The notes beneath the pieces are model-generated. The model was not told the origin of the DNA, searched no databases, and saw only the letters and a program-made list of their open reading frames with translations. Position numbers and translations under genes: made by a program. This document shows positions 22,696 to 45,566 of a stretch of 64,000 nt of DNA, in pieces (within the stretch, counting starts at the first letter, position 1; the number at the start of each line of letters is the position of its first letter). The stretch is taken from contig JAJYSP010000002.1 of NCBI GenBank assembly GCA_021793515.1, forward strand, positions 113,624-177,623, read 5' to 3'. This DNA is from Actinomycetes bacterium. GTDB lineage: Bacteria > Actinomycetota > Acidimicrobiia > Acidimicrobiales > RAAP-2.

Positions 22696-22728
22696 TGGCA
22701 GAACCCCCTCGTGGCGACGGGAGACCCG

Positions 22729-23139
22729 TCACTCCTCAATGTAGATGTCCTCACTGGTCACCGTGTCATCCTTGATCCGAAAACTACGCACGACAGCTGG
22801 TACGTCGCGAAGCGAAACCAGGACGTAGTGCCAATCAGGATCGGGCGCCAGACGCACGTCGGTCGGGCTCGGGTAAGCCTCGGAGTGCGTGTGCGAGTGA
22901 AAGACCCCGAGCACGGCGAATCCCTCGTCGTCGACTCGGCGGAATGTCCGCAACAGCACGCGACTGTCAATTTCGTAAACCCGGGCCGACGCCGCAACAT
23001 TCGGGCTTGGAACGACTTCGGTAGCCGTGGCGTCATCGCCATCGACCCGACCGATGAGCAGTCCGCACCCCTCATTCGGCAACGCCCGAATGCACGTCGC
23101 GATCATCGCGTCGCGGATCGCCGGGGTCAGTGTGAGCAC
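22729..23139 (-). CDS. mec: JAB/MPN (M67) metallopeptidase, CysO-Cys peptidase-like
   Basis: ALPNEGCGLLIG, VFHSHTHSEAYPSPTD (JAMM zinc motif); next to cysO/cysM. Confidence 0.88.
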   Translation of the reverse strand: MLTLTPAIRDAMIATCIRALPNEGCGLLIGRVDGDDATATEVVPSPNVAASARVYEIDSRVLLRTFRRVDDEGFAVLGVFHSHTHSEAYPSPTDVRLAPDPDWHYVLVSLRDVPAVVRSFRIKDDTVTSEDIYIEE

Positions 23140-23193
23140 GGGCCCACCCTACCGACCAGAAATTGGGGACACGCTGGTCACTACGCTGGACAC

Positions 23194-23712
23194 GTGGCAC
23201 GAGCCAAACAGATCCAAGAACGTCGCGCCAACGCAAGGGCGAACGTAAACGGCGACCGTGTGGTCGCCACGAATCGGCGCGCCCGGCATGACTATGAGAT
23301 CGTCGATACCCTCGAATGCGGCCTGGTGCTCACCGGCAGTGAAGTGAAGTCGCTGCGAGAAGGCAAGGCGCAGATCACCGAGAGCTACGCCCGGATCGAC
23401 GACGGTGAGCTCTGGTTGTTCGCCTCCCACATCCCACCGTGGAGCTACGCCGTTGGATTCGGGAGTCACGACCCAGATCGGAAACGGAAGCTCCTCGTCC
23501 ATCGCCACCAGATCAACCAGTGGTGGATCAAGACCCAGACACAACCACTGACCATCGTGCCGCTCAAGGTGTATTTCAAAGATGGCCGCGCCAAAGTCGA
23601 GATCGCCCTCGCCCGCGGTCGCAAGCAGCACGACCGTCGTCAGGCACTCGCCAAGCGTGACGCGGAGCGCGAGATCGCCGTGTCCGTGCGGAACTTCGAG
23701 AAGTACGGCTGA
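23194..23712 (+). CDS. smpB: SsrA-binding protein
   Basis: VATNRRARHDYEIVDTLECGLVLTGSEVKSLREGKAQITESYARI...HDRRQALAKRDAEREI; GTG start within the longer ORF 22711. Confidence 0.95.
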   Translation: MARAKQIQERRANARANVNGDRVVATNRRARHDYEIVDTLECGLVLTGSEVKSLREGKAQITESYARIDDGELWLFASHIPPWSYAVGFGSHDPDRKRKLLVHRHQINQWWIKTQTQPLTIVPLKVYFKDGRAKVEIALARGRKQHDRRQALAKRDAEREIAVSVRNFEKYG

Positions 23713-23808: not shown

Positions 23809-24161
23809 GGGGGTGATTGGTCTCGACGTTGGTCGACATGGTGAGAGAAGCGAGCCGTGGTCTCCGGAACCACGCTAAAGAGCCGGAAACAAAAATAAAC
23901 GCCACAACTAATGCTGCGTTTGCTGTTGCCGCTTAGGTAACCCGTCCGTCTATACCCGGCCTCGCGGTGTAGGTCACGGGCGTCATGAAGCGAGGCTTAC
24001 CAGCGGGATTCGTCAATGAGACCGTCGGGACAATTCAGTTGACTAAGGGGTCACACCGGTGCTGATGACGGTGTTGCCCCCGACAATCTCCATCAGCTGC
24101 GCTCGGAGAAGACTCACTTAGAAGCCGACGGACCTGGGTTCGATTCCCAGCACCTCCACCA
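23809..24161 (+). ncRNA. ssrA: tmRNA
   Basis: 5' GGGGGTG pairs with 3' CACCTCC-ACCA; GGTTCGATTCCC T-loop; tag reading frame ...NATTNAAFAVAA-TAG at 23898..23936; directly after smpB. Confidence 0.92.
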
Positions 24162-25905
24162 TTTGTGACCCTGTACGAACTGGGGTCCACGTCAGCGGCG
24201 AATCCAGGCGTACCAAGGTGTCGCCTGGATCGCCGTAGCCCTCCTCCGAGGACTCCGCGTCGGATTGTCTACGTTTGGAGTGCGTCGCCACCCGCCGCGA
24301 CCGCCCGCCAGGCAGCACCTGTCCGGGCCCCCGTGAATCGACCGTCGGCACTCGCAGGACGACGTCAATGTTGCGCCCCCGGCTCACCGTTACCGAGTCC
24401 ACGAGAGCCCCGAGGATGCGCTTCTTCTCGTAGTATCCGTCCTTCGCGGACAGAGCCTGCGTCACTTCGGAGAGCGCAGCGGAGAGGTCCACGAGGCTAC
24501 CCCCACCCATACTCAGCTCCGCGGACTCCTCGAGCAATCGCGTGAGCTCTGCCCGCTGTGCTGCGAGACGGGCTTCCAGGGACTCGACTCGCTTCTTCAT
24601 CCCTGCGACGTCGAGTGTTCCCTCTTCGAACGCCTCGAAGTAGCGCTCTATGGCGGTTTCGGACTTGGCGATAGCCAAGCGCATACTGCTCGCCTGCTCA
24701 TCCAGGTCCGCCGTCTGATGCGGCGCGTCGGCGGCCGCCATCGACACGGCCATCTCGAAGAGCTCAGAGTCCTGGTACGCGTTCAAGACCGCCTGGGTAA
24801 CCATCGCTTCGAGCTCGTCCGCAGCCACCCGCTCGTTGCGACAACGCTCCGACTCGGCCCGCTTGGTCTGGAGGCTGCACGTGTAGTACCGATAAGAGCC
24901 TCCTTGTCCGTGCGCTCCACTTCCGACCATGCTCCCGCCGCACTCCCCGCACTTCGTGACTCCGGTGAGGATGTAGTCGGTTAGACCCATCGCTGGTCGC
25001 GTGGCCCGTTCGCGGCTGTTGCGTGTCGCCCGAATCGCCGCTACCGCGGCGAAATCCCCGGGACTCACGATGGCCTCGTGCAGACCCTGATGCCGGTCTT
25101 CACCGTGCGCGATGTAGCCGGCGTATACGGCCCCCTCTAAGAGGCGCAAGACGGCTTCCGGGTACCACTTCTTCCCACCGCGATGTGTGATGCCGGCGCC
25201 GTTCAGTTCTTCGGCGATGGTCTTGGCCCCCTTACCCGTCTGGTAGGCGGAGAACACTCGACGAACGACCACCGCCTCATCGGCCAGAACGACCAGCGAC
25301 TTGTTCACCTTGTCGTTCGCGTATCCGTACGGAGCGCGGCCCCCTAGCCATTCCCCCTTCATTGCCTTGGTTTCGTAGGCCTCGAGGATGCGGTCGATGA
25401 GGATGCTGTGCTCGAACTCCGCGAAGGACGCGAGCATTTGCGCCATCAGCTTGCCCGCGGGCGTCATCGTCTCGAAGGGCTCGGTCGCCGAGCGCACCGC
25501 CACGTTCGCCTGCTCCAGACGATTCGTGATGTCCATGAACCCGTAGACCGACCGCGCCAATCGGTCGAGTCGATAGAAGAGCACGACGTCGAACTTGCCG
25601 GTGGTGGCGTCGTTGAGCATCGCCTCGAGACCCGGACGGTGATTGTTGGTCCCCGTCTGCTGGTCCGCGTAGTCACAGGCGAACACCAGTTCCTGGTGCA
25701 CCGCGATGTAGTCTTTCAGGCTCCGCTCCTGGGACTCGAGGGAGTGTGGTTGGTTGACCTCGTTGGTCGAGATGCGCCGGTACGTCGCGACGCGAAGTAC
25801 TCTGCCGTCGTCTCGTGCGAGTCGCCGCCTACTGCTTGTGGACATCGACACCCCTTTCGCCAGCGTTGCTGAACCTTGGAACTGTTTAACCAATTCCTCT
25901 GACAT
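24118..25905 (-). CDS. Large serine recombinase (site-specific integrase)
   Basis: VATYRRISTNEVNQPHSLESQERSL, FYRLDRLARSV, recombinase domain GGRAPYGY, zinc ribbon CGECGGSM...CRNERV, coiled coil; C-terminus overlaps tmRNA 3' end. Confidence 0.92.
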   Translation of the reverse strand: MSEELVKQFQGSATLAKGVSMSTSSRRRLARDDGRVLRVATYRRISTNEVNQPHSLESQERSLKDYIAVHQELVFACDYADQQTGTNNHRPGLEAMLNDATTGKFDVVLFYRLDRLARSVYGFMDITNRLEQANVAVRSATEPFETMTPAGKLMAQMLASFAEFEHSILIDRILEAYETKAMKGEWLGGRAPYGYANDKVNKSLVVLADEAVVVRRVFSAYQTGKGAKTIAEELNGAGITHRGGKKWYPEAVLRLLEGAVYAGYIAHGEDRHQGLHEAIVSPGDFAAVAAIRATRNSRERATRPAMGLTDYILTGVTKCGECGGSMVGSGAHGQGGSYRYYTCSLQTKRAESERCRNERVAADELEAMVTQAVLNAYQDSELFEMAVSMAAADAPHQTADLDEQASSMRLAIAKSETAIERYFEAFEEGTLDVAGMKKRVESLEARLAAQRAELTRLLEESAELSMGGGSLVDLSAALSEVTQALSAKDGYYEKKRILGALVDSVTVSRGRNIDVVLRVPTVDSRGPGQVLPGGRSRRVATHSKRRQSDAESSEEGYGDPGDTLVRLDSPLTWTPVRTGSQMVEVLGIEPRSVGF

Positions 25906-26692: not shown

Positions 26693-28747
26693 TTGAGCAA
26701 ACCCCGGGTGGTTCATCTTGTGAATCCGAATCAAATCGAACACGATATTCTGCAGCCGGCCGTGAGTCGCGTACACCTCATCGGGCAGTTGGACCTCGTC
26801 AGTGAGAACCGAGACGGTAAGTCCCTTGGTGAGTGGGCCAGCGAGGTGATTGAGCGAGTCGGGGAGAATGCGCAGAAAGCGAAGACCTTCAGGTACTTCC
26901 CAGCGGCCCTCGCGATTTGGCTGACACAGCACGCACAGCAGCCAGAAGCACACGCCTTTTGGACCGGACTACCGGACTGGGTGCAACAGGGCAAGCTCGG
27001 TCCCGAGTACGTCACGGCGCTCCAATGTCTGCGGCTAAACGACTTTCAGGCCGCCCTCATCAACAGCAACCGATACGTGCAGGCCGCAAGAATTCATGCG
27101 CTGCTTCCGCCGTTCGCCATACCCGATCTCTTCAAGAAGGTTCGGATGGCCGCCCGAAACGGCTGGGACGCTGGCGACCTGCGTAATCACCTACTCGAGT
27201 CGACCAGTACCTCAGCGGTGTCAGTCAGGTACCTGCTTGAGTACGCGCCCGAGGAGGCCGATGACCTCCTGGACCGAATGATGAAGGCGTTGAGGATCCC
27301 CAGTACGGCCAGTGAACTGTTGCCCTCCCACATCGCGACCGTTACTGATAGCACCGATTCGATTTCCGTGGGATTGAAGGGGTCACCCGCATCGAGTCCA
27401 CGAATTCATCTCGACGCTCTCGACTACCCGACGCTCGAAGTGTTTCTTCCCCCAGTACCCGATGCTCAGTGGTCGCTCAAGGGGACAACCGTTTCGGAGG
27501 TTGGACAGGGTTGCGAACAGCCCGCTCCAATTCCGCCGGTCGTTGTACAGCTCGGCGGGGGCGATCCGATTACTCTGCTCCCCACGGGTTTACCCGTACT
27601 CGTCTTTTCTAATTTGGGCCGCTACATCAAGTCTGGAGTTCTACCCAAAATGGGCGGCATGTTGGTGGTTAATCACGGTCTTCATCTGAAACCGGATCCG
27701 TACGCTGACCTGGGACGCCTGAGGGGAGATTGGGGCACGCATACGGCGTACGTGGTGGCCGGCATCGATTACGAGGTGTGCAGCAGCGACGGAGCGCGCG
27801 TAGCGCTCGTCCCGTCACGATCCGACATCAGCGTCGAAGAGGTGTTCGTACCGCGTTTGCGTTTCGCGGGCTCGCAGCCGGTCTATTCCGAGGTACCGAG
27901 ATTGTTAGCCGATCGCGCCCTGATCATCGATAACGCTGCCGGCATCGCCTCGCAACGGCTGTCCGGGGATTCCGTCGTTGACAAGGATCATGGACCGATC
28001 GTGTCGCTCTCGATCAAGGGAGAACGACTTGGGGACTCCTACGAAATTGAAGGACTCGTGATGCGGGGCGCACGATTGACGACGACGTCCACCACACTCC
28101 TACCAGGTCGTCCGACACACGCCGAGCTCACTCTTCCGATCGGTTGGAGCGGCCCCGAGACCATTGAACTCGTTCACAACGGTGATCACGCCCTCGTGGT
28201 ATCGGACTCTACGGGTCAAACGTACGACCTAACGATTGAAGTGCCCTCGTTGAGCTGGGCGGTGCATCGTCGACAAATCGAATCCCCAGAATGGACCACA
28301 CTGCTACGAGAGCACGCTGACTTACCAAAGATCGAAGGCCTGCGCGTCTATCACGGTGAAGCCACGTCACCAAACGTGACCGTGATGGCGGGTGGTCGTC
28401 CAGTGCAGAGCTTGGTCCCTGCGAATCAGGGACTCAGTGGCACGTCATCATCGCACTACTACGACCTACGAAGTGTCCACGGATTGGCCCGAACCAACGT
28501 TCACGAAACAGTCGAAATTCGAGCGCGCCTGTGTGGCGTTGACATAGTACTCATGCGTTTCGCGGCGATGGCGAAGAAGGTCCAGTGGAAGTCAGTGTCA
28601 CTGCGGGATGTCGCGAGTGAAGCCGGCTACACGGAAGACGAGATGCGAGCAGCTCGAAACGCGAACCGTGAAGCCGAGTCCAGCGAATGCAGGGAGCGTG
28701 ACCGACTCTTGACGGAGAGTCTGAGAAGAAGGAGTCGAGGTCTGTGA
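26693..28747 (+). CDS. 684-aa protein of unknown function, coupled to helicase
   Basis: Long ORF; helical N-terminal region and beta-rich C-terminal part by eye; stop overlaps the helicase GTG (GTGA). Confidence 0.85.
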   Translation: MSKPRVVHLVNPNQIEHDILQPAVSRVHLIGQLDLVSENRDGKSLGEWASEVIERVGENAQKAKTFRYFPAALAIWLTQHAQQPEAHAFWTGLPDWVQQGKLGPEYVTALQCLRLNDFQAALINSNRYVQAARIHALLPPFAIPDLFKKVRMAARNGWDAGDLRNHLLESTSTSAVSVRYLLEYAPEEADDLLDRMMKALRIPSTASELLPSHIATVTDSTDSISVGLKGSPASSPRIHLDALDYPTLEVFLPPVPDAQWSLKGTTVSEVGQGCEQPAPIPPVVVQLGGGDPITLLPTGLPVLVFSNLGRYIKSGVLPKMGGMLVVNHGLHLKPDPYADLGRLRGDWGTHTAYVVAGIDYEVCSSDGARVALVPSRSDISVEEVFVPRLRFAGSQPVYSEVPRLLADRALIIDNAAGIASQRLSGDSVVDKDHGPIVSLSIKGERLGDSYEIEGLVMRGARLTTTSTTLLPGRPTHAELTLPIGWSGPETIELVHNGDHALVVSDSTGQTYDLTIEVPSLSWAVHRRQIESPEWTTLLREHADLPKIEGLRVYHGEATSPNVTVMAGGRPVQSLVPANQGLSGTSSSHYYDLRSVHGLARTNVHETVEIRARLCGVDIVLMRFAAMAKKVQWKSVSLRDVASEAGYTEDEMRAARNANREAESSECRERDRLLTESLRRRSRGL

Positions 28748-31700
28748 GCGAATTCAATCCAGTGAGAGCGGCTGATGCAGTCACCGCGGCGTACAGCAAT
28801 TTCCTCGGGTCTTCGTTTTCGCCCCGTCGAAACGAAGTGGCTACGGCCTACGCCGCAGCATTGCGCAATGCGAATGCGACCCAAGCCACTTCGAGCTTGC
28901 TCCTTGAACCCCGCCGCACGTACACGCAAGGGGCCCGCATCAACGACCTAGTAACGGAGGGAACGCTCGCGTCCCCGTTCCGTGATCTCGTCAACGCGGG
29001 CGAAGTCCATCCGTCGCTCTACGACCACCAAGAACGGGCGGTACGCACGGCCATCAATGACGTGCGCAATGTCGTCATTGCCACCGGAACAGGCTCAGGT
29101 AAGACCGAGGCCTTTCTGCTTCCGATCGTTAACGGTCTGCTCAAGGAACACGACGCTGGACGATTGACGACCAACGTCAGAGCCATTCTCCTGTATCCAA
29201 TGAACGCGTTGGCGAACGATCAGATGAAGCGGATCCGTGAGATGTTTCGCCATCTCCCACCGGAGATCACGTTCGGCAGGTACATCGGTGCCACGGAGCA
29301 CCGGCAGGCTGACGCCGAGAAGGACTGGCTCGAACGCAACGGGCGAAACACCGTTCGTCCGGCTAACGAATTGATCAGTCGCGACGTCATGGACGAGACA
29401 CCACCTCACCTCCTTCTCACCAACTACGCGATGCTCGAGCGACTCCTCCTACTCCCAAAATCAAGTCGTCTCTTCTCGGAGGAACTGCAGTGGATCGTCC
29501 TCGACGAGGTCCACAGCTACGACGGCGCTCGTGGTACCGAAATGGCCTTCCTTCTGCGGCGCCTGCGCCAGCGAACGGTAGGCGTGCGCGGGCGACTTCA
29601 GTGCTTCGCTGCGTCGGCGACCCTCGGCGACGGGCCAGCGAGCGCCCCCGCCGTCGCCAAGTACGCGACCGAGCTCTTTGACGAACCCTTCGACGCCGCA
29701 GGTGTCATCACGCCGACCCACGTCCCCATGGTTATCGACCCCGGTAGCTCAACTCTCCAGACGGCGGCACTGACCCAGTTGGGTCAGAACTTGGCGCTGA
29801 ACCTTGACGATCCTGCGTGGGCGGGCCTCAGGGAGCAACTCCGCCAGGATCCAGCCTCCCTACCAGTGCGCTACCACCAGATCGTCCGAAGCCCCGCCGG
29901 CGCCTTCGTGTGTCTCAGTCCATCGCACCCAGACGGGATCGACAAACCGCGGATCACGTTACAGCCAGGCAGAAGCTGTGTGGAATGCCGCAAAATCGGA
30001 GTAGAGAGTCGTCTGATGGAGCTAGCGGCGTGCCGCAGTTGTGGCGCTGAGTACCTACGTGGAAGGGAGCGAGGCGGACGACTCGAGCTGGTCGGTCCGT
30101 ACGACGAGTCGCCGACACTGTTGCTCCTCGGAATGACGCGAACGCCACTCGATCCGCCGGGGATCGCTTCCTGGTCTCCCGGGGAAGACAGCGCCGAACG
30201 CGACGACTCCTACGGCGAAGCCGAGGTTGAGCACAGCCCTAAGTCGGTATGTACCCAGTGCCTGAAGGTGTCGGGCCCAACTGCCATCTGTGAGTGCGGA
30301 AGTTCTTCACTCGTCGATGTCTTTGTTCGCAAGGTCTCGAACGGTTCTACCAACGGTCACTGTCTGCACTGCGGGTACGCGGGGACAGGGTTTGGCCCCA
30401 TCGCCCGGGCGGTACCGGGTGTCGACTCGTTGAGCGCGGTGCTGGCGTCGAGCCTCTACGCGTCAATTCCTCCGGCTCCCGGCAGTAGCGCACCCGGCGG
30501 GGAAAGAAAGCTCCTGGCGTTCTCCGACAGCAGACAGGACGCCGCCTACTTCGCGCCGTTCCTGCAAGTCGAGAACGGGAAGTACCTTCGCCGCAGCGTC
30601 ATCTACGAGGCGCTGACTGGGCTAGCCGACGATCGGGCGTACTCGGCCCCGTACGAGTCGGAAGTCGTGAGCGCACAACTAGCCCCCCTGCTGGACGATC
30701 TGGGGCTTGCTCGCGGTAATCCATCCATTCAGATGGCTCGCACGTGGCTCCGCGCCGAGTTGATCCCGCGGGACACCAGACAGTCCCTGGAAGGAGTGGG
30801 CCTGCTTCGGTGCAGCCTGAACGGCGCCAGTCTCTCGACCTCCGCTCAGGTCCTCTCGTCGTACGGCGTTGAGAAACCTGAACTCGTTGTTCGGATGCTG
30901 CTGGACACGATGAGACTTGACGGCGCCGTCGGTACGCAGGGGGCAGTCAACGCCAAGGACCCGGTCTTCGCCCCGATTCTGGCGGAGCACCAGTACGTCC
31001 TCAACGGCAAGACGCCGCCAAATCTACCCGTCCACCGATGGGTCGGCTCGGATCGCGACACGAAGAATCGCCGCACTCGAATCGTCCGCAAGGCCCTCGA
31101 CCGTGCAGGTTCATCAGTGCATGCGGTTGATGTCCTAGAAGAGATCTGGACCGCCCTTCTTGACGCTGGGGTTCTGCTCGGTCGAGATTCCAGGTTCAAC
31201 GTCCCGCTCGACTCCTGGTACTTCGACCTTCCCCGCAACGGGCGGTACTTCTGCGGGACCTGTCGACGCTGGACCTGGCTCGGAGGTTCGATTTGTCCCA
31301 CTCCCTCCTGTGGCGGAACCCCGGTCGAGACCGAGCAGGCACTCGACTACTGGGGATCGCTGTACAGCACGCGAGATCGAATTCAGCCACTGCGGGTCGA
31401 AGAACACACCGCACAGTGGACGAGCGACGAAGCCCAACGTATCCAGGAAGAATTCGTCAAGGGCCACGTCAACGTCCTGTCATGCTCGACCACCTTTGAA
31501 ATGGGCGTCGACGTGGGTGCGGTCCAAGCGGTGCTGTGCCGAAACGTACCGCCAACTCCGGCCAACTACATCCAACGCGCCGGGCGCGCCGGTCGCCGCG
31601 AGGGAGATGCGTCACTGGTCGTGACCCTCGCTCGGACGCGGAGTCACGATGCGTACTACTCATCCCAGCCCGAGCGCCTCGTATCGGGCGTCGTTCCGGT

Positions 31701-33315
31701 GCCTTCGATCGACATCGACAATGCGAACCTCGCCCGTCGGCATCTGTACGCAACGGCCCTGTCGCGTTTCTTGAGCGAGACGTTTCCGGATCAGCCCGGC
31801 GGATTGAAATCAGGAGACTTCTTCGAAGCCGACGGCGGCCGTACAGACGAGCCATCGCCCGCCGAGCGATTCGCCAAGTGGGTCGCCGGACCCGGGCTTG
31901 TGTCGGTCCCCGCCGCCGACATCGGGTTCACTGTTTCGGTCAATCTAGAGCTCGGGATTCCAACGCCGGGTACATGGACCGGCGTCCTGACCTCAACTGA
32001 CGCTGATCACCCGGGACCTTTGACTGTCGCCCGTGAGGCGTTCGTGGACGACATCAAAATTGTTCGTGATCGTCGAGAGCAGGTATCAGCACGAATCGAT
32101 GACCCCGAGACCGACCCGAGTAGTCGGGGGAAACTGAACAGCTTTCGGACTGTACTGTTCCGCACGGAAGACACGCTTCGTGCCAAGGACGCAATCGGCG
32201 AATTGGCCAACAACGGCGTCCTGCCCAAGTATGGATTCCCGGTTGATGTCGTTGGCCTGCACCCCGTGACCGCCGACCGGGCCACCGTTACGGGGCTCGA
32301 CAAGCTGAACCTGACTCGCGACCTTCGAATCGCGCTGAGGGAGTACGCCCCTGGTAACGAGGTGATGGCCGCCGGCAACATCGTCAAGTCAGTCGGGTTA
32401 AAGACACTTTCGGGCTACAACCTCCTGCTGTCCGAATTCGTGACGTGCGACGAGTGCGACTGGTTCACTCATACGTTGATTGCCGACGTGGGCAGTGAGG
32501 TTGATCTTCCAACCGTCTGTGGTTCGTGTGGCGGACCCGTGGAGAAGCGGCGCTTCATCGAGCCCCGGTACGGATTCATTGGTGAAGTCCAGAAGGACGT
32601 CGGTGGCTCACGTCGGCCCATCAGTCGATTGGGCACCAAGACCTACCTGTCGTACGAGGCCGAGAGCGCCGCCGGCGACGAGATCGAGTGGACGGAGCTG
32701 TCATCCACGCTCAGTTATCGCGGCGGGCGAATCGCGAAGAGGCTGACACTCACCACGATGCCGCAGATGACGTGTCTGTACTGCGGCTACGTCGAGCTCG
32801 GCGCGAAGAAGAAGGCGCAGCAACAAGGTCATCGCAACTACCGCAGTGCGGACCCCGATGCCCTCTGTACCAAGACCCTGTACACGTTGAAGTTGGGTCA
32901 CCCGCACCGCACCGAACTACTGGAGATACGTCTGTCGTCAGCGACCCCCGCCTGCGTCTGTGGTGACCCGGTGTGTGCCGGTGCGTGGCGATCCCTCGCG
33001 GCTTCACTCGCTGTGGGAGCGGCGCGATTACTCAAGGTGAGCACGCTCGACATCGACGCCGACATCACCGGTGGTCGCGAGCCACGTGTCGTCATCTTCG
33101 ACACGGCCGCCGGCGGCGCCGGGTACACGAAAACCATCAGCGAGAAGATTCCCGAACTCCTACGAAGCGCGCTGGGGGTCGTGCAGAACTGCGGCTGTAC
33201 GCCAGACGGTTCGTGTTACCAGTGTCTTCGTAATTACCAGAATCAGACGCACCACGAGCATCTATCTCGCGCGACCGCTCAGTTGCTGCTGGGTCAAGCG
33301 CTCGCCTCGTTCTGA
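28744..33315 (+). CDS. 1523-aa DEAD/DEAH-type helicase with multiple Cys clusters and DUF1998-like C-terminus
   Basis: GTGSGKTEAFLLPI, WIVLDEVHSYDGARGTE, FAASATLG, FEMGVDVG, YIQRAGRAGRR; C-terminal TAAGGAGYTKTI...CGCTPDGSCYQCLRNYQNQTHHEHLSR. Confidence 0.92.
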   Translation: MSEFNPVRAADAVTAAYSNFLGSSFSPRRNEVATAYAAALRNANATQATSSLLLEPRRTYTQGARINDLVTEGTLASPFRDLVNAGEVHPSLYDHQERAVRTAINDVRNVVIATGTGSGKTEAFLLPIVNGLLKEHDAGRLTTNVRAILLYPMNALANDQMKRIREMFRHLPPEITFGRYIGATEHRQADAEKDWLERNGRNTVRPANELISRDVMDETPPHLLLTNYAMLERLLLLPKSSRLFSEELQWIVLDEVHSYDGARGTEMAFLLRRLRQRTVGVRGRLQCFAASATLGDGPASAPAVAKYATELFDEPFDAAGVITPTHVPMVIDPGSSTLQTAALTQLGQNLALNLDDPAWAGLREQLRQDPASLPVRYHQIVRSPAGAFVCLSPSHPDGIDKPRITLQPGRSCVECRKIGVESRLMELAACRSCGAEYLRGRERGGRLELVGPYDESPTLLLLGMTRTPLDPPGIASWSPGEDSAERDDSYGEAEVEHSPKSVCTQCLKVSGPTAICECGSSSLVDVFVRKVSNGSTNGHCLHCGYAGTGFGPIARAVPGVDSLSAVLASSLYASIPPAPGSSAPGGERKLLAFSDSRQDAAYFAPFLQVENGKYLRRSVIYEALTGLADDRAYSAPYESEVVSAQLAPLLDDLGLARGNPSIQMARTWLRAELIPRDTRQSLEGVGLLRCSLNGASLSTSAQVLSSYGVEKPELVVRMLLDTMRLDGAVGTQGAVNAKDPVFAPILAEHQYVLNGKTPPNLPVHRWVGSDRDTKNRRTRIVRKALDRAGSSVHAVDVLEEIWTALLDAGVLLGRDSRFNVPLDSWYFDLPRNGRYFCGTCRRWTWLGGSICPTPSCGGTPVETEQALDYWGSLYSTRDRIQPLRVEEHTAQWTSDEAQRIQEEFVKGHVNVLSCSTTFEMGVDVGAVQAVLCRNVPPTPANYIQRAGRAGRREGDASLVVTLARTRSHDAYYSSQPERLVSGVVPVPSIDIDNANLARRHLYATALSRFLSETFPDQPGGLKSGDFFEADGGRTDEPSPAERFAKWVAGPGLVSVPAADIGFTVSVNLELGIPTPGTWTGVLTSTDADHPGPLTVAREAFVDDIKIVRDRREQVSARIDDPETDPSSRGKLNSFRTVLFRTEDTLRAKDAIGELANNGVLPKYGFPVDVVGLHPVTADRATVTGLDKLNLTRDLRIALREYAPGNEVMAAGNIVKSVGLKTLSGYNLLLSEFVTCDECDWFTHTLIADVGSEVDLPTVCGSCGGPVEKRRFIEPRYGFIGEVQKDVGGSRRPISRLGTKTYLSYEAESAAGDEIEWTELSSTLSYRGGRIAKRLTLTTMPQMTCLYCGYVELGAKKKAQQQGHRNYRSADPDALCTKTLYTLKLGHPHRTELLEIRLSSATPACVCGDPVCAGAWRSLAASLAVGAARLLKVSTLDIDADITGGREPRVVIFDTAAGGAGYTKTISEKIPELLRSALGVVQNCGCTPDGSCYQCLRNYQNQTHHEHLSRATAQLLLGQALASF

Positions 33316-33544: not shown

Positions 33545-35092
33545 GTGACAGGGGTGAGCGAGATGGGGAGTTCAATCGGGGACGCGGAGGCGCCGCTCAG
33601 TGCCGCCCCGATTTCTCTAAGCGATCTCGAGTCGTATCTAGGGCGCGCCTCCGATCTCCTTCGTGGCGCCATTGACCAGGCCGACTTCAAGGCCTACATA
33701 TTCCCCCTCATGTTCTTTAAACGCATCAGTGACGTCTATCTCGAGGAGTATCAGCAAGCCCTCGCCGAATCTGACGGCGACCACGAATTCGCGAAATTCA
33801 CCGAGAATCACCGATTCCAGATCCCCGACGGATGCCTTTGGGACGATGTCCGCCGCCGGACCGAGAACGTAGGTCAGGCTCTCGTATCCGCCATGCGTGG
33901 CATCGAGCGAGCCAATCCCGACACCCTCTTCGGCATCTTCGGCGGGGCATCGTGGACGAACAAGACTAAGTTGCCCGATCGGACCCTCGTCGACCTCATC
34001 GAACACTTCTCTTCGAAGTCCCTGACCAACTCAAACGTGGCGCCGGATGTCTTCGGTCAGGCCTACGAGTACCTCATCAAACGTTTCGCTGATCAGTCAA
34101 ACAAGAAGGCAGGCGAGTACTACACGCCTCGTTCTGTCGTACGTCTTCTGGTGAACATTCTCGATCCTCGAGAGGGCGAAACGGTTTACGACCCCGCCTG
34201 CGGGACGGGCGGCATGCTTATCGAAGTGATCGAACACGTGAAGGCGGCTGGTGGCAAACCTCAACTGCTCTGGGGCAAACTCTTCGGCCAGGAGAAAGTT
34301 CTGACCACCTCATCCATCGCCCGGATGAACCTCCTCATCCACGGCGTCGTTGACTTCAAGATCGTCAAAGACGATACCCTGCGATCACCCGCCTTCACTC
34401 ACAACGACCGCCTAGCCCGCTTCGACTGCGTCATCGCCAATCCCCCCTTCTCCCTCGAGTCGTGGGGCGAGGACCAGTGGCCGGCCGACAAGTGGGGTCG
34501 TAGCCAATTCGGTGGAACCCCACCAAGGAAGTACGGTGACTGGGCTTGGGTCCAACACATGGTTGCATCGATGACGCCACTGAACGGCCGCATCGCCGTC
34601 GTGGTGCCCCAAGGAGCCCTCTTTCGCAAGGCGAAGGAGGAGCCCGTGCGCCAGGCGATGATCGACGCCGACCTCATTGAAGCAGTCATCGGCCTCGCGC
34701 CCAACCTCTTCTACGGCACCGGTCTCGCGGCCGCAGTGATGATCCTGCGCACCCGCAAGCCAGAGGAGCACGCCGGTAAGGTGCTCTTCATCAACGCGGA
34801 ATCGCTGTATCAGCGTGGCCGCAATCAGAACTCCCTCGAGGCTGACCAGGCCGCCCGGATTCTTGACCTCTATCGAAACTTCGCCGACGTACCCGGTTTA
34901 AGTCACGTCGCAACAAAGGAAGATATCAAGACCAACGATTTCAGCCTCAATGTCCCCCTCTACGTTGCACCAGTTGCGAATGGCCCGGCCGTGACCTTGG
35001 AAGAGAGCCTCCAGCGCCTCCGTGTCGCGTACGACCAGGTCCGGTCCTCTCGTGCGGATCTCGAGGCCCAACTCACCAAGTGGGGACTCTGA
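33545..35092 (+). CDS. hsdM: Type I restriction-modification methyltransferase subunit (HsdM), copy 1
   Basis: DPACGTGGML SAM motif and NPPF catalytic motif; HsdM N-terminal domain. Confidence 0.94.
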   Translation: MTGVSEMGSSIGDAEAPLSAAPISLSDLESYLGRASDLLRGAIDQADFKAYIFPLMFFKRISDVYLEEYQQALAESDGDHEFAKFTENHRFQIPDGCLWDDVRRRTENVGQALVSAMRGIERANPDTLFGIFGGASWTNKTKLPDRTLVDLIEHFSSKSLTNSNVAPDVFGQAYEYLIKRFADQSNKKAGEYYTPRSVVRLLVNILDPREGETVYDPACGTGGMLIEVIEHVKAAGGKPQLLWGKLFGQEKVLTTSSIARMNLLIHGVVDFKIVKDDTLRSPAFTHNDRLARFDCVIANPPFSLESWGEDQWPADKWGRSQFGGTPPRKYGDWAWVQHMVASMTPLNGRIAVVVPQGALFRKAKEEPVRQAMIDADLIEAVIGLAPNLFYGTGLAAAVMILRTRKPEEHAGKVLFINAESLYQRGRNQNSLEADQAARILDLYRNFADVPGLSHVATKEDIKTNDFSLNVPLYVAPVANGPAVTLEESLQRLRVAYDQVRSSRADLEAQLTKWGL

Positions 35093-36582
35093 TGCCCGAA
35101 GGCCGCATCACACAGAGCGAGCTCGAGAGTTATCTGTGGGGAGCCGCCGTCATTCTTCGTGGTCTCATCGACGCCGGGGACTACAAGGGCTACATCTTCC
35201 CGATCGTGTTCTTGAAACGCGTGAGTGACGTCTGGGATGAGGAGCACGTCACTGCCCTCGCCGCCTACGACGATGAGGAACTGGCCGACCTACCTGAGAA
35301 CCACCGCTTCACGATTCCCCCGGGCTGTCACTGGGAGGACGTCCGCTCGACGGCGACCAACGTGGGGGCTCGCCTGCGCTCGGCCATGATCCAGATTGAA
35401 TCCGCTAACCCCGCCTCGCTGGAGGGCGTCTTCGGTGACGCCGAGTGGACCAACAAGGATCTTCTCCCTGACGCGACCCTGACGGCACTGGTCGAACATT
35501 TCTCCACACGAACCCTTTCCATCGCGAACCTGCCCGAGGACGAGCTAGGGAACGGCTACGAGTACCTCATCAAGCGCTTCGCCGACGACTCCGGACACAC
35601 GGCTCAGGAGTTCTATACCAACCGCACGCTCGTTCACCTCATGGCCGAGATGCTGAAACCCCAACCTGGCGAGAGTATCTACGATCCCACCTGCGGCACG
35701 GGAGGCATGCTCATCTCCTGTGCCGCCGAGGTGAAGAACCGGGGGCAAGAACACCGGGCTCTGCATCTCTACGGCCAGGAACGCAACTTCACCACCGCCT
35801 CGATTGCGAAGATGAACCTCTTTCTCCACGGCATCGAGGACGGTCAGATCGCCCAGGACGACACGCTGGTCAATCCGCGATTCCTAGATGACGCCGGGAG
35901 ACTCCGTCGCTTCGACCTCGTCCTGGCCAACCCTCCATACTCCATCAGCAACTGGGACCGCGTGGCTTTCACTGCGGATCGCTTCGGGCGAAACGTCTGG
36001 GGCGTCCCACCGCAGGGGCGTGCGGACTACGCCTTCTTCCAGCACATCGCGTGCTCGATGGATGAAAAGACCGGTCGTGCAGCCATCCTGTTCCCACACG
36101 GCGTTCTCTTTCGACAGGAGGAATCGGAGTTGCGCGAGAACCTCGTAAAATCTGGTCTCCTCGAAGCGGTGATTGGTCTCGGACCAGGTCTCTTCTACAA
36201 CTCGCCGATGGAGGCCGTCGTCGTGGTGCTTCGCTCCAAACGTCCTCCCGAGCAGTGCGACTCAGTCCTCTTCATTAACGCTGTCAATCAAGTGGCTCGC
36301 GAAAGGGCGCAGTCCTTCCTCTATCCCGAGCACCGCGCCACCATCCTCGGTGCGTACGAGGCCTTCAAGGGCAAACCGGGCCTCGCCGCGGTCGCCACCA
36401 CCGACGACATCGCGAGCAACGCGTACTCCCTCGCCATCCCTCTCTACGTCGCCGCGGTCGAGAGTCCTGCCACGACTCGGACAATCGAGTCCCTCGTCAG
36501 TCAGTGGCGAGTTGCAGCCGCTGCTGCCGACGCTGCCGTGATCACCGTCCTTGGAACCTTCGATACGGAGCGCAACCAATGA
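35092..36582 (+). CDS. hsdM: Type I restriction-modification methyltransferase subunit (HsdM), copy 2
   Basis: DPTCGTGGML and NPPY motifs; ATG overlaps the previous TGA (TGATG). Confidence 0.94.
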   Translation: MPEGRITQSELESYLWGAAVILRGLIDAGDYKGYIFPIVFLKRVSDVWDEEHVTALAAYDDEELADLPENHRFTIPPGCHWEDVRSTATNVGARLRSAMIQIESANPASLEGVFGDAEWTNKDLLPDATLTALVEHFSTRTLSIANLPEDELGNGYEYLIKRFADDSGHTAQEFYTNRTLVHLMAEMLKPQPGESIYDPTCGTGGMLISCAAEVKNRGQEHRALHLYGQERNFTTASIAKMNLFLHGIEDGQIAQDDTLVNPRFLDDAGRLRRFDLVLANPPYSISNWDRVAFTADRFGRNVWGVPPQGRADYAFFQHIACSMDEKTGRAAILFPHGVLFRQEESELRENLVKSGLLEAVIGLGPGLFYNSPMEAVVVVLRSKRPPEQCDSVLFINAVNQVARERAQSFLYPEHRATILGAYEAFKGKPGLAAVATTDDIASNAYSLAIPLYVAAVESPATTRTIESLVSQWRVAAAAADAAVITVLGTFDTERNQ

Positions 36583-37691
36583 CTTTCTCCATTGACAAGA
36601 GCAATTGGCGCAAGGTCCGCTTCGGAGATTTCGCACAGAGCGTCACGGATCGTGTCGATGATCCGTCAGACGCAGGTGTCGATCGATATGTTGGACTCGA
36701 GCACCTCGACCCAGGCAGTTTGTCGATCACACGCTGGGGCCACCCAAGCGACGTCGAGGCTCAGAAGCTCCGCTTCGCGCCGGGGGACGTCATCTTTGGT
36801 AGACGGAGGGCATATCAACGCAAGGTGGCTCAGGCAGACTTCGAAGGAATCTGTTCCGCTCACGCACTAGTCCTGCGCGCGAAGCCAGAATTCGTCTTGC
36901 ACAAGTTTCTCCCCGTCTTCTTGAGTAGTGATTACTTTCTCGATCGAGCGATCAAGATCTCCGTAGGTTCACTCTCACCCACTGTCAACTGGAGGGACCT
37001 CGCTCCACAGGAATTCCTCCTCCCGCCTCTCTCCGAGCAACAGCGAATTGCGGACTTACTTTGGGGGCTGCATGACCACGGGCAGGCATTAACTAAATTG
37101 AGGGCGCAGACCGAGTTAGTGAGGAGAGAATCCATTCGCACCTTGTGTCGACCAACTGGGGCACCTTCCGTCTCAATTGCAGATGTCGCCGATGTACTTG
37201 ATAATCGTCGCGTGCCCGTATCCGAAGCCGAACGTGCGAAGAGAATTGGCAGTGTCCCCTACTACGGGGCAACTGGTCAAGTCGGCTGGATCGATGAGTC
37301 TATTTTCAATGAGCGGCTTGTTTTAATTGGGGAAGACGGGGCGCCGTTTAACGAATGGCGAGAAAGGCCAATCGCTTATGAAATAGACGGACCGTCGTGG
37401 GTGAATAACCACGCTCATGTACTTCGTGCGCGATCTGTATCGCACCAGTGGCTCCTATATTCGCTGATGCACTTTGAGATAGTGCCTTTCGTAACTGGAA
37501 CCACGCGGGGAAAGCTGAATCTGTCCAGCCTCAGGAGGATTCCGATCCTTTTGCCCGAAGATATGGAGCACCGAGCGGCAAAAATAGCCGCGGTGACTTC
37601 ACGTATCTCGAAAATTGATGACGAACTCGGTTCGGTGAGGGATCTTCTCAGTCGGGCTCTCGATTTTCTCATTGGTGAGGACACGATATGA
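36579..37691 (+). CDS. hsdS: Type I restriction-modification specificity subunit
   Basis: Two TRD-like halves, first ending PPLSEQQRIADLL; ATGA overlap with hsdM2. Confidence 0.9.
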   Translation: MTFSIDKSNWRKVRFGDFAQSVTDRVDDPSDAGVDRYVGLEHLDPGSLSITRWGHPSDVEAQKLRFAPGDVIFGRRRAYQRKVAQADFEGICSAHALVLRAKPEFVLHKFLPVFLSSDYFLDRAIKISVGSLSPTVNWRDLAPQEFLLPPLSEQQRIADLLWGLHDHGQALTKLRAQTELVRRESIRTLCRPTGAPSVSIADVADVLDNRRVPVSEAERAKRIGSVPYYGATGQVGWIDESIFNERLVLIGEDGAPFNEWRERPIAYEIDGPSWVNNHAHVLRARSVSHQWLLYSLMHFEIVPFVTGTTRGKLNLSSLRRIPILLPEDMEHRAAKIAAVTSRISKIDDELGSVRDLLSRALDFLIGEDTI

Positions 37692-40588
37692 ACTTCAACG
37701 AAGCCAACTCCGTTCGAGACCTTGTTAGGGACCGAGCCGCCGCCGGTTCGTGGGATTTCATTGCTGGCAGCGCGCTTCAGCGCGAATACTCTGACGTCTT
37801 CATCGAGTCTGACCTTCGTGACGCGCTAGTTCGGCTAAATCCGGCTATCGCGGCTGACCCCTCTCGTGCAGACGACGTCATTTACCGACTCCGTAGCTTG
37901 GTCCTGTCCGCCAGGGCCGGAGCGCTGGCCACGTCAAACGAGGAGTTCGTAGCGTGGCTCACCGGAGACCGCTCGATGCCCTTCGGACCTGACGGTGAGC
38001 ACGTCACGATCTACTTGCTCGACTTCGATGACCCGTCGAGCGATCGGCGGGTCGTGTCTACCGAAGTCACCCACACCCGAGGTCGCGTCGAGCGCCGCTT
38101 CGACCTCGTCTTCTGGGTCAACGGAATGCCCCTCGTGGTGGGAGAAGCGAAGTCGCCGGTGAGGCCGGCCTACTCGTGGGTCGACGCAGCCGCTCAGATT
38201 CACGACGACTATGAGATGAACGTGCCCGCGTTCTTCGTGCCTAACGTCTTGACCTTCGCAACCGAAGGTAAGGAGTTCCACTACGCATCCGTCGGGACGC
38301 CCGTCGACAAATGGGGTCCGTGGCGCGAAGATCGACCAGGCTTCCACCCGCTAGGAATGGAAGCCGTGACGTCCGCTGTGGGGGCCCTCCTAACCCCCGC
38401 CGCGATCCAGGACTTCGCTCGTTACTTCTCGGTTTTCGCGACCGACAGCAGCCACCGCAAGATCAAAGTTGTGGCGCGCTACCAGCAGTTCCAGACCGGC
38501 AACGCCATCGTTGAGCGTGTTCGTGACGGTCAGGTCAAGAAGGGCCTGGTCTGGCACTTCCAGGGATCCGGCAAATCGCTCCTCATGGTATTCGCCGCGA
38601 AGAAATTGCGCGGCGACCCGAGTCTTGGTGCGCCGACCGTCATCATTGTCGTCGACCGACTGGATCTTGACACCCAGATCACCGACACCTTCACGCTTCA
38701 CGACATCCCGAATGTCGTTTCCACGGACAGTCGCGGTGAACTTCAAGAACTCCTACTAACTGGGACTCGCAAGATCATCATCACGACGGTCCACAAGTTC
38801 GGTGAGGCCCCCGGGGTGCTCAATGCGCGGTCCAACATCATCGCGATGGTCGACGAGGCCCACCGCTCCCAGGAGGGTGACTTCGGACGTGCAATGCGCG
38901 AAGCACTGCCGAACGCCTTCCTCTTCGGACTCACGGGAACACCCATCAATCGGAGCGACCGCAACACCTTTACCGCCTTCGGTGCACCCGCCGACCCGGG
39001 CGGCTACATGTCGAAGTACACCTTCACGGACTCGATTCGAGACGGCGCGACTCTTCCGCTGCACTTCGAGCCACGACTCGTCGACGTGCACATCAACCGT
39101 ACGGCGATCGATACGGCGTTCGCCGCGCTAACCGAGGAACTCACTGACAAGGAGCGCAGCGCCCTCTCGAAACAAGCGGCCAGTGTCGCTCACTTGCTCA
39201 AAGCCCGTGACCGAATCGCTACTGTCGCTCGCGACGTCGCCGAGCACTTCACTGAGCGTGTCGCCCCTGAGGGCCTTAAAGCCCAGGTAGTCGTCTACGA
39301 CAAGGAGGCTTGCGTCTTGATGAAGACCGAGCTCGACCGGATCTTAGGTGCAGAGGCGGCAACCATTGTCATGTCAATGAACGCCCGTGACCCTCAGCAG
39401 TGGCGTGACGCCTGGGGCCGCGACCGGGACGAGGAAAAGAAGATTCTCGATCGCTTTCGCGATCCCGCTGACCCTCTGCAGATACTCGTCGTGACCGCGA
39501 AACTCCTAACGGGCTTCGACGCCCCAATCCTGGGTGTCCAGTACCTAGACAAGCCCCTGCGTGACCACACTCTGCTCCAGGCCATCTGTCGCACGAATCG
39601 CCCCTATCACGGCAAGAGCCATGGACTCATCGTCGACTACATCGGAATCTTCGACGACGTGGCCCAGTCTCTCCTCTTCGACGATCCCACGATGATCTCG
39701 GTCATCACAAACCTTGAGGCCCTTAAGCAGCAGCTTCCAACGGCTCTCACGACCGCGCTCGCCTTCTTCACGGGGGTCGATCGTTCGGTAGCAGGCTGGG
39801 AAGGTCTCCAGGCCGCCCAGGATCGCCTGCCCGACGACGAGGCCCGCGACGCCTTCGCACGGGCATACTCCAAACTCTCGCAGCTTTGGGAAGCCATTAG
39901 CCCAGATCCAATGCTCTCCCCCCTCCGAACCGACTACCGGTGGCTGACCGATGTCTATGAGTCTGTGCGACCAGCGGACCACACAGGCAAACTCGTCTGG
40001 CACGCTCTTGGTGCGAAGACCCTCGAGTTGATCAACGAGAACGTAACCGTTGACGTTCCCCGCAATGACCTCGCGACCGTTGTGATCGACGCTGAATTGC
40101 TAGAGGAGTTAGCTGTGGGCAAGGCCGATCCGGAAGTGGCAATGCGGGTGATCTCAGGACGCATCGCGCGACATGGCAACGACCCCAAGTTCGTGGCACT
40201 CGGTGAGCGTCTGGAGAAGTTGAAGGAGCGCTACGACCAAGGGCAGCAGGCCAGCCTCGATTTCCTACGAGAGCTGCTCGAAATCGCCCGTGACACGGTC
40301 GCCGCCGAGAAGGACGCCGACGAGGTTCCTCGTGAGGAGCGCGGCAAGGCTGCGCTCACCGAACTCTTCGACTCCGTCAAGAGCGAGAACACACCAGTAA
40401 TGGTCGAGCGCGTCGTCAACGACATCGACGAGGTCGTGCGGGCGGTGCGATTCGAGGGCTGGCAGGAGACCGCCCAAGGCGACCGTGAAGTTCAGCAGGC
40501 TCTGCGCAAGACCCTCTACGTCCGCTACCAACTACGCGATCCCGTGCTCTTCGAGCGAGCTCACGAATACGTGCGTCAGTACTACTAG
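37688..40588 (+). CDS. hsdR: Type I restriction endonuclease subunit R
   Basis: VNGMPLVVGEAKSP nuclease region, HFQGSGKSLLM, MVDEAHRSQEG, GLTGTPI; ATGA overlap with hsdS. Confidence 0.95.
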   Translation: MNFNEANSVRDLVRDRAAAGSWDFIAGSALQREYSDVFIESDLRDALVRLNPAIAADPSRADDVIYRLRSLVLSARAGALATSNEEFVAWLTGDRSMPFGPDGEHVTIYLLDFDDPSSDRRVVSTEVTHTRGRVERRFDLVFWVNGMPLVVGEAKSPVRPAYSWVDAAAQIHDDYEMNVPAFFVPNVLTFATEGKEFHYASVGTPVDKWGPWREDRPGFHPLGMEAVTSAVGALLTPAAIQDFARYFSVFATDSSHRKIKVVARYQQFQTGNAIVERVRDGQVKKGLVWHFQGSGKSLLMVFAAKKLRGDPSLGAPTVIIVVDRLDLDTQITDTFTLHDIPNVVSTDSRGELQELLLTGTRKIIITTVHKFGEAPGVLNARSNIIAMVDEAHRSQEGDFGRAMREALPNAFLFGLTGTPINRSDRNTFTAFGAPADPGGYMSKYTFTDSIRDGATLPLHFEPRLVDVHINRTAIDTAFAALTEELTDKERSALSKQAASVAHLLKARDRIATVARDVAEHFTERVAPEGLKAQVVVYDKEACVLMKTELDRILGAEAATIVMSMNARDPQQWRDAWGRDRDEEKKILDRFRDPADPLQILVVTAKLLTGFDAPILGVQYLDKPLRDHTLLQAICRTNRPYHGKSHGLIVDYIGIFDDVAQSLLFDDPTMISVITNLEALKQQLPTALTTALAFFTGVDRSVAGWEGLQAAQDRLPDDEARDAFARAYSKLSQLWEAISPDPMLSPLRTDYRWLTDVYESVRPADHTGKLVWHALGAKTLELINENVTVDVPRNDLATVVIDAELLEELAVGKADPEVAMRVISGRIARHGNDPKFVALGERLEKLKERYDQGQQASLDFLRELLEIARDTVAAEKDADEVPREERGKAALTELFDSVKSENTPVMVERVVNDIDEVVRAVRFEGWQETAQGDREVQQALRKTLYVRYQLRDPVLFERAHEYVRQYY

Positions 40589-41813: not shown

Positions 41814-42194
41814 TCATCTTCGAATGGCGTCTTCGCGCAGTTGCCCGTGGAGGCGGGCGACGGTGTCGCGCAGATCCCTGTTCTCTTTCGTCAGTTCGGT
41901 GATGTGCTTGTGAGCGATCTCAAGGCGGCGGCGATTGGACTCTGCGCTTGCCCGGCTGTCCCTAGCTTCCGGCACAGGACTGGCCTTCGATGCGTTGAGC
42001 GTTTTGATCTCGTCCAAGAGATCGTGCTGAGCGTAGAGCCACGACCGGGAGACCCGTGCTCTGACGGCGAGTCGAGCCACCGTGATCACCTCGCCTTGTG
42101 GCATCGATGCCAACCCGGTGGTCGCTCGCTTCAACGTCTCGTCATGACGAGCCCGAGCGAGTTGGGCCAATCGCTCCGAGTTGTCAGGCAGCAT
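41814..42194 (-). CDS. tnpC: TnpC-like (Tn554 family) accessory protein
   Basis: Short basic HTH/coiled-coil protein VARLAVRARVSRSWLYAQHDLLDEI...ELTKENRDLRDTVARLHGQL downstream of two recombinases. Confidence 0.7.
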   Translation of the reverse strand: MLPDNSERLAQLARARHDETLKRATTGLASMPQGEVITVARLAVRARVSRSWLYAQHDLLDEIKTLNASKASPVPEARDSRASAESNRRRLEIAHKHITELTKENRDLRDTVARLHGQLREDAIRR

Positions 42195-44433: not shown

Positions 44434-45566
44434 GGCGCGGGCATCGCTGCCAACACGCCAGCAGCGACGAGCGCCCTTCTCGCGTCCTCGACGCCGAGAT
44501 GAGCGTAGGTGTCGATCGTGGTCGAGATCGAAGCGTGACCCATGAGCTTTTGGACGACCTCGGGTGCCACACCTCGCCGGAGGAGATTTGTGGCAAAGGA
44601 GTGGCGAAATAAGTGGGGGCTGAACTCGATGCCGGTCCGGGCGCGCAACCGACGAACCAAGCGGTAGACGCTGGCGTAGGTCATCGGCTGGCCGAGCGGT
44701 TCTCCCCACAGGTTCACGAACACGTAGTCACAGTCCAACGCCCCGTACTCGTCGTGCAGGTAGTCACTGTAGAGCCGAATAAGTCCTGGGTCGACTGGCA
44801 CCTCACGAGACCAGGACTTGGCGCGAGCGCCATTGATGTTCAACCGCTGGCGGACGGCGATCTCGCAACGCCGCGCATCGATGTCTTCGTGACGGAGACC
44901 GAGCGCCTCGCCGACGCGCAAGCCCGTGCCGGCCAGCAGGCTCAGTAGGAACCGGTCCCTCAGCCGGTCGCACCCCTCGATCAGACTGCTCATCTCCGCG
45001 AGTGTGAGTTCCCGCGGAGTTCGGCGTTCTCGGCGCAGCCCGACGACTTGGTGCCGTTCGGGCCTCGCGCCCAGGTGGGCAAGGAAGGGCTTCCACGATC
45101 CGCCCCGTCCGCCGGGCCGCCATCTCGTCAACAGCTCGGCCACGTCGACACCGTGACGAGCGTGGAACTCGTAAAAGGAGGCCACCGCAGAGAGTTTGCG
45201 GTTCACCGTCGAAGTAGACAACGCGCCCTCCACCCATGGCAATGCAGCCACCCGGCCGGTTCGTGCGGTAGGAGGAAGCCGGAGCCACGCAACGAATCGA
45301 CCGAGGTCCTCCAGGCACACTGCGGCCCAGTCGAGTTCGCGGATGGTCAAATACGAAAAGAAGTCCTTCAGATCGTGGGCGTAGGCCCTCACCGTATTCG
45401 GCGAGCGCTCGATCGCGCTCAGATGCGCCAGAAACTTCTCCACCGGTTCGACAAATTGACCGTCCGCCAAAATCGTCGACGACTCTACCCCCGAAGGCAT
45501 GACTACTCGTTGAACACGCAACTGGTCTCCTGTCGTGGGAACCGCAAGATAACCCGCCCAAGACAC
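44430..45566 (-). CDS. tnpA: TnpA-like tyrosine recombinase (Tn554 family)
   Basis: LLAGTGLRVGEALGLRHEDID, FSPHLFRHSFATNLLRRGV, LMGHASISTTIDTYAHL. Confidence 0.88.
   Translation of the reverse strand: MSWAGYLAVPTTGDQLRVQRVVMPSGVESSTILADGQFVEPVEKFLAHLSAIERSPNTVRAYAHDLKDFFSYLTIRELDWAAVCLEDLGRFVAWLRLPPTARTGRVAALPWVEGALSTSTVNRKLSAVASFYEFHARHGVDVAELLTRWRPGGRGGSWKPFLAHLGARPERHQVVGLRRERRTPRELTLAEMSSLIEGCDRLRDRFLLSLLAGTGLRVGEALGLRHEDIDARRCEIAVRQRLNINGARAKSWSREVPVDPGLIRLYSDYLHDEYGALDCDYVFVNLWGEPLGQPMTYASVYRLVRRLRARTGIEFSPHLFRHSFATNLLRRGVAPEVVQKLMGHASISTTIDTYAHLGVEDARRALVAAGVLAAMPAP

Follow-up and report, generated by a model that had tools for sequence, protein, structure and literature searches.

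What kind of protein accompanies a very large DUF1998-type helicase in a member of the Acidimicrobiales, and do the two make a new defence system? The question arises from a 64,000-nucleotide stretch of contig JAJYSP010000002.1 (assembly GCA_021793515.1, Actinomycetes bacterium), called here the window. An original prediction had marked two overlapping genes in it as an undescribed defence operon, in which a 684-residue protein of unknown family might be the sensor or specificity component for a 1523-residue helicase; it allowed that the smaller protein might just as well be a divergent form of some known partner. The latter reading was the correct one. The pair is DruH-DruE, from the III-B-like branch of Druantia type III, and so a known system rather than a new one; the novelty lies in a shortened DruH architecture. 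The features of the pair are as follows.

26693..28747, + strand: druH, short form; TTG start, 684 residues; based on the open reading frame (ORF) call, profile alignments and an AlphaFold2 model
28744..33315, + strand: druE; GTG start, 1523 residues; YprA-family superfamily 2 (SF2) helicase with Zn-binding modules and a DUF1998/MZB C-terminal domain
28744..28747, + strand: GTGA stop/start overlap between the end of druH and the start of druE; 4 bp, from the ORF coordinates

The ORF coordinates bear out the overlap that had been noted, and from it the two genes are probably translationally coupled. The sequence features ascribed to the helicase were likewise all located: GTGSGKT at residue 115, DEVH at 254, SAT at 291, QRAGRAGR at 944 and the DUF1998-type C-terminal signature, SCYQCLRNYQNQTHH, at 1490, together with nine C-x2-C pairs, one of which falls within that signature. 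Pfam recognizes DEAD, Helicase_C and MZB, the MrfA Zn-binding domain that answers to the DUF1998-type signature.

A PADLOC run on the window called the helicase DruE and left the partner unscored. The DruE1/DruE3 models give the helicase 508 bits, against 62 bits for DISARM DrmA, and the same models score other DruEs of the actinobacterial branch comparably, above 500 bits; for E. coli DruE the best PADLOC model is DruE3. A profile built from the window helicase together with relatives has its best PDB match in the helicase of entries 9tu7-9tuc, which we take to be the E. coli-type DruE of PMC13192584 because the companion entry 9tud is named DruH and the entries fit the protein in that paper. 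As a DUF1998 SF2 helicase of very large size that falls in the YprA defence branch, the protein belongs to Druantia in the broad sense. The original prediction had proposed a Druantia-III or DISARM-like minimal system, and a YprA-family helicase and DUF1998 are common to DISARM, in which case the 684-residue protein would be an equivalent of DrmB or DrmC. Here, however, DUF1998 is already part of the helicase polypeptide, the DrmA score is far lower than that of DruE, neither drmB nor drmC occurs among the neighbouring genes examined, and the partner is colinear with DruH. The profile alignments described below refute a DISARM-type assignment, which can be given next to no credence, and only the Druantia III half of the proposal stands.

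Within Druantia III, Bell et al. (PMC12458937) described a separate III-like branch, III-B, whose DruE is mostly without a nuclease. The window DruE ends right past DUF1998, with neither the two PLD domains of III-A DruE nor a Vsr nuclease tail, and it also lacks the extension of about 90 residues seen in two DruEs from the same order; its identity to same-order DruEs is only about 35%. In a DruE tree built without the published III-B representative GIH50614.1 and without Druantia I/II and ARMADA references, the window protein falls inside a III-B-like clade of usually nuclease-free helicases, apart from E. coli III-A (support 99/97), and its lineage stands beside same-order DruEs paired with long DruHs (82/98). 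A basal position for the window lineage had appeared in a first tree rooted on E. coli; it may reflect long-branch attraction and was dropped after better outgroups were added. The window lineage also has the shortest helical insert after RecA1 of the 85 DruEs measured, 85 residues against 106-196 in the others, with about 64 residues missing after residues 348 and 366. Bell et al. placed a BrxA-like domain in this insert region of DruE (PMC12458937).

The partner is, on the evidence of profile alignment and gene position, a divergent DruH. Searching 198 genomes of the order with the 684-residue protein returned, besides itself, three relatives, all weak (expectation value E ~1e-7), that match only its first ~220 residues and lie in frames of 1139-1245 residues, with ORFs of 1136-1238 residues. 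In each case a DruE follows directly downstream, and three more DruE loci in the order are arranged alike. Profile-profile comparison extends the match well beyond the N-terminus. Using hhalign, the window protein together with its ortholog from G714, another species of the genus, aligned colinearly to six long DruHs over residues 4-615, corresponding to positions 20-703 of 1134 (E=4e-24, probability 99.6). With a profile of 44 long DruHs drawn from several phyla, the alignment of the window protein covered positions 33-704 of 1144 (E=2e-19) and the G714 ortholog reached E=3.8e-22; shuffled-sequence controls scored 14-20 against this profile, compared with 159 for the real window protein. The long DruHs in turn match eight proteobacterial DruHs, among them E. 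coli YjiT/DruH, over positions 53-810/45-787 (E=7e-9), with a score of 90 where column-shuffled controls reach at most 17, and the E. coli protein is PADLOC DruH3 over its full length.

Gene order was assessed more broadly by scanning one genome per species, which yielded 80 DruE loci from other genomes. In about 70 of the 80, a DruH-like ORF, recognized by hidden Markov model or by profile alignment, lies immediately upstream of DruE, and in four further loci DruH is in the operon with something between it and DruE. By profile alignment and position, the window pair shares the arrangement of Druantia type III, with DruH directly upstream of DruE.

Several results weigh against identifying the partner as DruH. 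Pfam gives zero matches on the 684-residue protein, and no PADLOC, Pfam, PHROG or NCBIfam model matches it, the one PHROGs match having E=0.11. When the window protein is aligned by itself, it does not match the proteobacterial DruH profile directly. The structural search that had been suggested returned only generic immunoglobulin-like (Ig-like) proteins at low TM-scores when the model of the short DruH was run by Foldseek against PDB and BFVD; the solved DruH, 9tud, was not among the matches, and no direct fold comparison with 9tud was made. A sequence search of PDB with the 684-residue protein gave nothing useful, and a protein-query search of viral contigs, plasmids and GTDB genomes gave no close relatives, the relatives being confined to its own family and order. 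Because a direct III-A match is missing, the identification depends on a chain from the window protein to III-B DruH and from there to III-A DruH, together with gene order. The apparent novelty of the protein has a ready explanation: the DruH3 models of PADLOC-DB 2.0.0 represent the proteobacterial branch alone and score none of the III-B-branch DruHs scanned, long or short, and the protein therefore looks like one of unknown family. The match to a named component, which comes from profile alignment and gene position, is an outcome that the original prediction had itself set as refuting it, and it removes both the "undescribed" system and the "unknown" family of the original prediction.

What sets the window DruH apart is where it ends. 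It stops near DruH position ~704 of 1134-1144, so that about 430 C-terminal residues are gone, while full-length DruHs in our sample are mostly 1050-1360 residues long; lacking the C-terminal module of the full-length (~1100-residue) protein, it is classed as a variant. The AlphaFold2 model (predicted local distance difference test score, pLDDT, 82.9) has a helical N-terminal domain at ~1-220, an Ig-like beta region at ~237-624 and one long C-terminal helix at ~637-681. The missing part, as modelled in a same-order DruH, consists of a beta domain of about 105 residues followed by an all-helical domain; Foldseek of this module (449 residues, pLDDT 79) found nothing at E<0.001 and no nuclease fold.

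The boundary recurs. Five other loci, L046, L105, L117, L063 and L113, from Acrocarpospora, Microtetraspora, Actinacidiphila, Parafrankia and an Actinomycetes metagenome-assembled genome, encode DruHs of 496-714 residues that end at the same point, positions ~704-721 of 1144. In DruE trees the five, a Streptosporangiaceae/Streptomyces/Frankia group, branch together as a single clade from among long-DruH pairs, and the window lineage lies elsewhere. Because the two fall apart in this way, the simplest reading of the sequences is that the DruH C-terminal module was lost independently at least twice. The five-locus clade resembles the window in its DruH end boundary and, in the four complete cases, in a DruE without a nuclease tail. 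It differs in its separate origin in the DruE tree, in a longer DruE insert (111-142 residues, against 85), in the absence of internal DruH segments from some copies and in having DUF2397 or DUF2398 neighbours in three loci. The latter genes lie next to or near DruE at L105:14546-16177, L117:13732-15306 and L063:15572-17758, and we take DUF2397 and DUF2398 to be members of Wadjet type III operons. A general link between short DruH and short DruE insert is not supported: the inserts measure 134-142 residues in four of the five and 111 in L063, lengths that long-DruH loci also span. Since the other short-DruH loci show no equal reduction, the short insert is treated as a feature of the window lineage only. 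No description of a shortened DruH in either lineage was found in the literature searched, which did not extend to supplements.

A truncated gene raises the prospect of decay, namely that the C-terminal part of DruH was deleted and defence was lost with it. This would agree with the long stem (1.31 changes per column) that the DruE tree gives the window lineage, and with the state of druH in two other species of the genus, G700 (L029:6777-10110) and G686 (L032). In G700 druH is broken near residue ~70 and a Mutator-family transposase separates the two parts; G686 has the same split, and both contigs end right after or within druH. Yet the ORFs are intact and coupled in two species. In G714 both genes are adjacent and intact, with a druH of 682 residues and identities of 49-50% (DruH) and 66% (DruE). 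Fragments of both genes in G673, a third species of the genus, are 89% (DruH) and 96% (DruE) identical to those of the window, and the ratio of nonsynonymous to synonymous substitution rates (dN/dS) between them is 0.10 for druH and 0.07 for druE. The short DruH is under purifying selection (dN/dS ~0.1). Because both genes are conserved together in G714 and dN/dS is low, the pairing is not accidental. The helicase motif set is moreover complete, and the same DruH end point occurs in an unrelated clade with intact ORFs. We therefore regard a decaying Druantia III as improbable.

How a shortened DruH might work can be considered by comparison with the characterized systems. Wu et al. (PMC13192584) report that III-A DruE loads on 3'-tailed DNA and that DruH, with three Ig-like domains, is the likely sensor; substitutions over DruH residues ~63-137 abolish or enhance defence, and ATP lies at a DruH dimer interface involving 1064/1067, the dimer having enhanced nuclease activity. 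In Mycobacterium smegmatis, Li and He (PMC13316683) identified 410 and 651 as the DruH residues contacting DruE, and both replication block and circularisation block of phage are reported for that DruH-DruE pair. The window shares with the III-B systems (PMC12458937; PMC13316683) the overlapping DruH-DruE order, a DruE with DUF1998 and no fused nuclease, an origin in Actinomycetota and a colinear DruH N-terminal and Ig-like region; it differs from them in its DruH, 684 residues against 1132 with the C-terminal module, and in its shorter DruE helical insert. With III-A of E. coli and other Proteobacteria (PMC13192584) it shares the DruE core and Zn modules, the gene order, profile-level DruH homology and the DruH activation-surface segment. 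The III-A DruE, however, carries two PLD domains on a protein of ~2110 residues, and the absence of such domains from the 1523-residue window DruE keeps the latter out of III-A; the III-A DruH C-terminal region also joins the ATP-bound dimer interface, and the window DruH is without that region.

Mapped by position, the short DruH retains the part associated with activation and DruE contact and is without the part associated with the ATP dimer and perhaps also with cutting. The published activation surface, ~63-137, lies in a segment aligned to window residues 31-145 (E=4e-7). Within the same segment are W90, the only invariant column among 54 DruHs, and H135 and P139, each at least 90% conserved. 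The M. smegmatis contact positions 410 and 651 fall in the retained region. Three points count against this assignment of parts: the contact positions were mapped by location and not residue by residue; a nuclease or dimer role for the lost module is transferred by position from one preprint, PMC13192584; and that preprint disagrees with the M. smegmatis paper PMC13316683 over a DruH-DruE complex, finding none that is stable.

We consider it quite probable that the locus is a Druantia III pair of III-B-like type in which a DruH cut to its N-terminal two thirds would sense infection and license a nuclease-free DruE, the function being putative. In the mechanism we propose, the retained helical and Ig-like part of the short DruH would recognise a phage-produced signal, and the role of sensor that the original prediction gave the partner is plausible. 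The short DruH would then contact DruE through the same face as the full-length protein and license it. DruE would load on 3' single-stranded DNA of phage replication intermediates, where its ATP-driven translocation and clamping would block replication or circularisation. If there is cutting, it would fall to another enzyme, because the DruE PLD tail and the DruH C-terminal module are both absent. A bolder proposal, which we hold only tentatively, is that such pairs represent a minimal form of Druantia III, recurrent and functional, with no nuclease and no DruH dimer/ATP module in either protein; DruH N-terminal/Ig sensing and the DruE helicase would suffice by themselves, and in the window lineage the insert would have been trimmed in step with module loss.

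Alternatively, a separate gene might supply the missing module or nuclease in trans, making the working system one of at least three parts. Candidates can be named. G714 has a PLD-domain gene of ~300 residues (L030:7368-8270, - strand) that converges on druE, the two genes overlapping at the druE end. In two related Streptosporangiaceae, a gene of ~680 residues stands between DruH and DruE (L040:7880-9961, Streptosporangium; L073:7912-9966, Microbispora); judged from sequence, its product resembles an Hsp70/DnaK-type ATPase with a NYN/PIN-like nuclease domain joined to its C-terminus, and it is possibly an extra Druantia III-B component in a clade sister to short-DruH pairs. In the window itself, a type I restriction-modification (R-M) operon lies directly downstream of the pair. 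Against these, the G714 PLD gene runs on the opposite strand, with no counterpart next to the window druE, and the neighbours of the other short-DruH pairs vary (a kinase, DUF2397, DUF2398), with no common third gene seen. Supply in trans is accordingly an unlikely account, and a two-protein DruH-DruE system remains our preferred reading.

The pair sits between ssrA with a large serine recombinase on one side and the R-M operon on the other:

22711-23712: smpB, upstream of ssrA
23809..24161, + strand: ssrA (transfer-messenger RNA), likely integration target of the island
24118..25905, - strand: large serine recombinase (Resolvase + Recombinase + Zn_ribbon_recom), divergent from druH
33545..40588, + strand: type I R-M operon hsdM-hsdM-hsdS-hsdR, context outside the pair

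The recombinase beside the pair agrees with the recombinase-associated island that had been predicted, and the setting fits a defence island at ssrA. No convincing direct (att) repeats were found at the island ends. In the R-M operon, hsdS and hsdR are preceded at 33545-36582 by a tandem pair of full-length HsdM genes, 49% identical and each with the NPP[FY] motif, where a single HsdM is usual. Beyond the operon lie two overlapping tyrosine integrase genes (42184-45566, - strand) and then an IS4-type transposase (46336-47727), a second mobile segment.

DruH varies in other ways among the loci surveyed. The N-terminal helical domain could not be aligned in the DruHs at L044:6426-10001, L058:7047-9995, L085:6844-9936 and L104:6818-9907, which match at positions ~267-1130 (325-1130 in L044) after a different N-terminus of ~150-375 residues; the pattern suggests N-terminal module swapping. 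In Microbacterium sp. CSI-V (L118:6677-10002), the druH frame is broken into ORFs of ~300 and ~900 residues, and a close relative, L043, has an intact DruH of 1102 residues.

These findings bear on the family in two respects. The actinobacterial and related DruHs tested escape the PADLOC DruH models, and such pairs may thus be under-called, reported as incomplete or described as a helicase plus an unknown protein. Further, the function of DruH is just being worked out, and only one preprint, of 2026, has reported its nuclease activity and ATP-bound dimer interface. Lineages that lost the DruH C-terminal module independently, two of them here, and that have no DruE nuclease either amount to natural deletion mutants, from which one may predict which part of DruH acts as the essential sensor/activator and whether Druantia needs a nuclease of its own.

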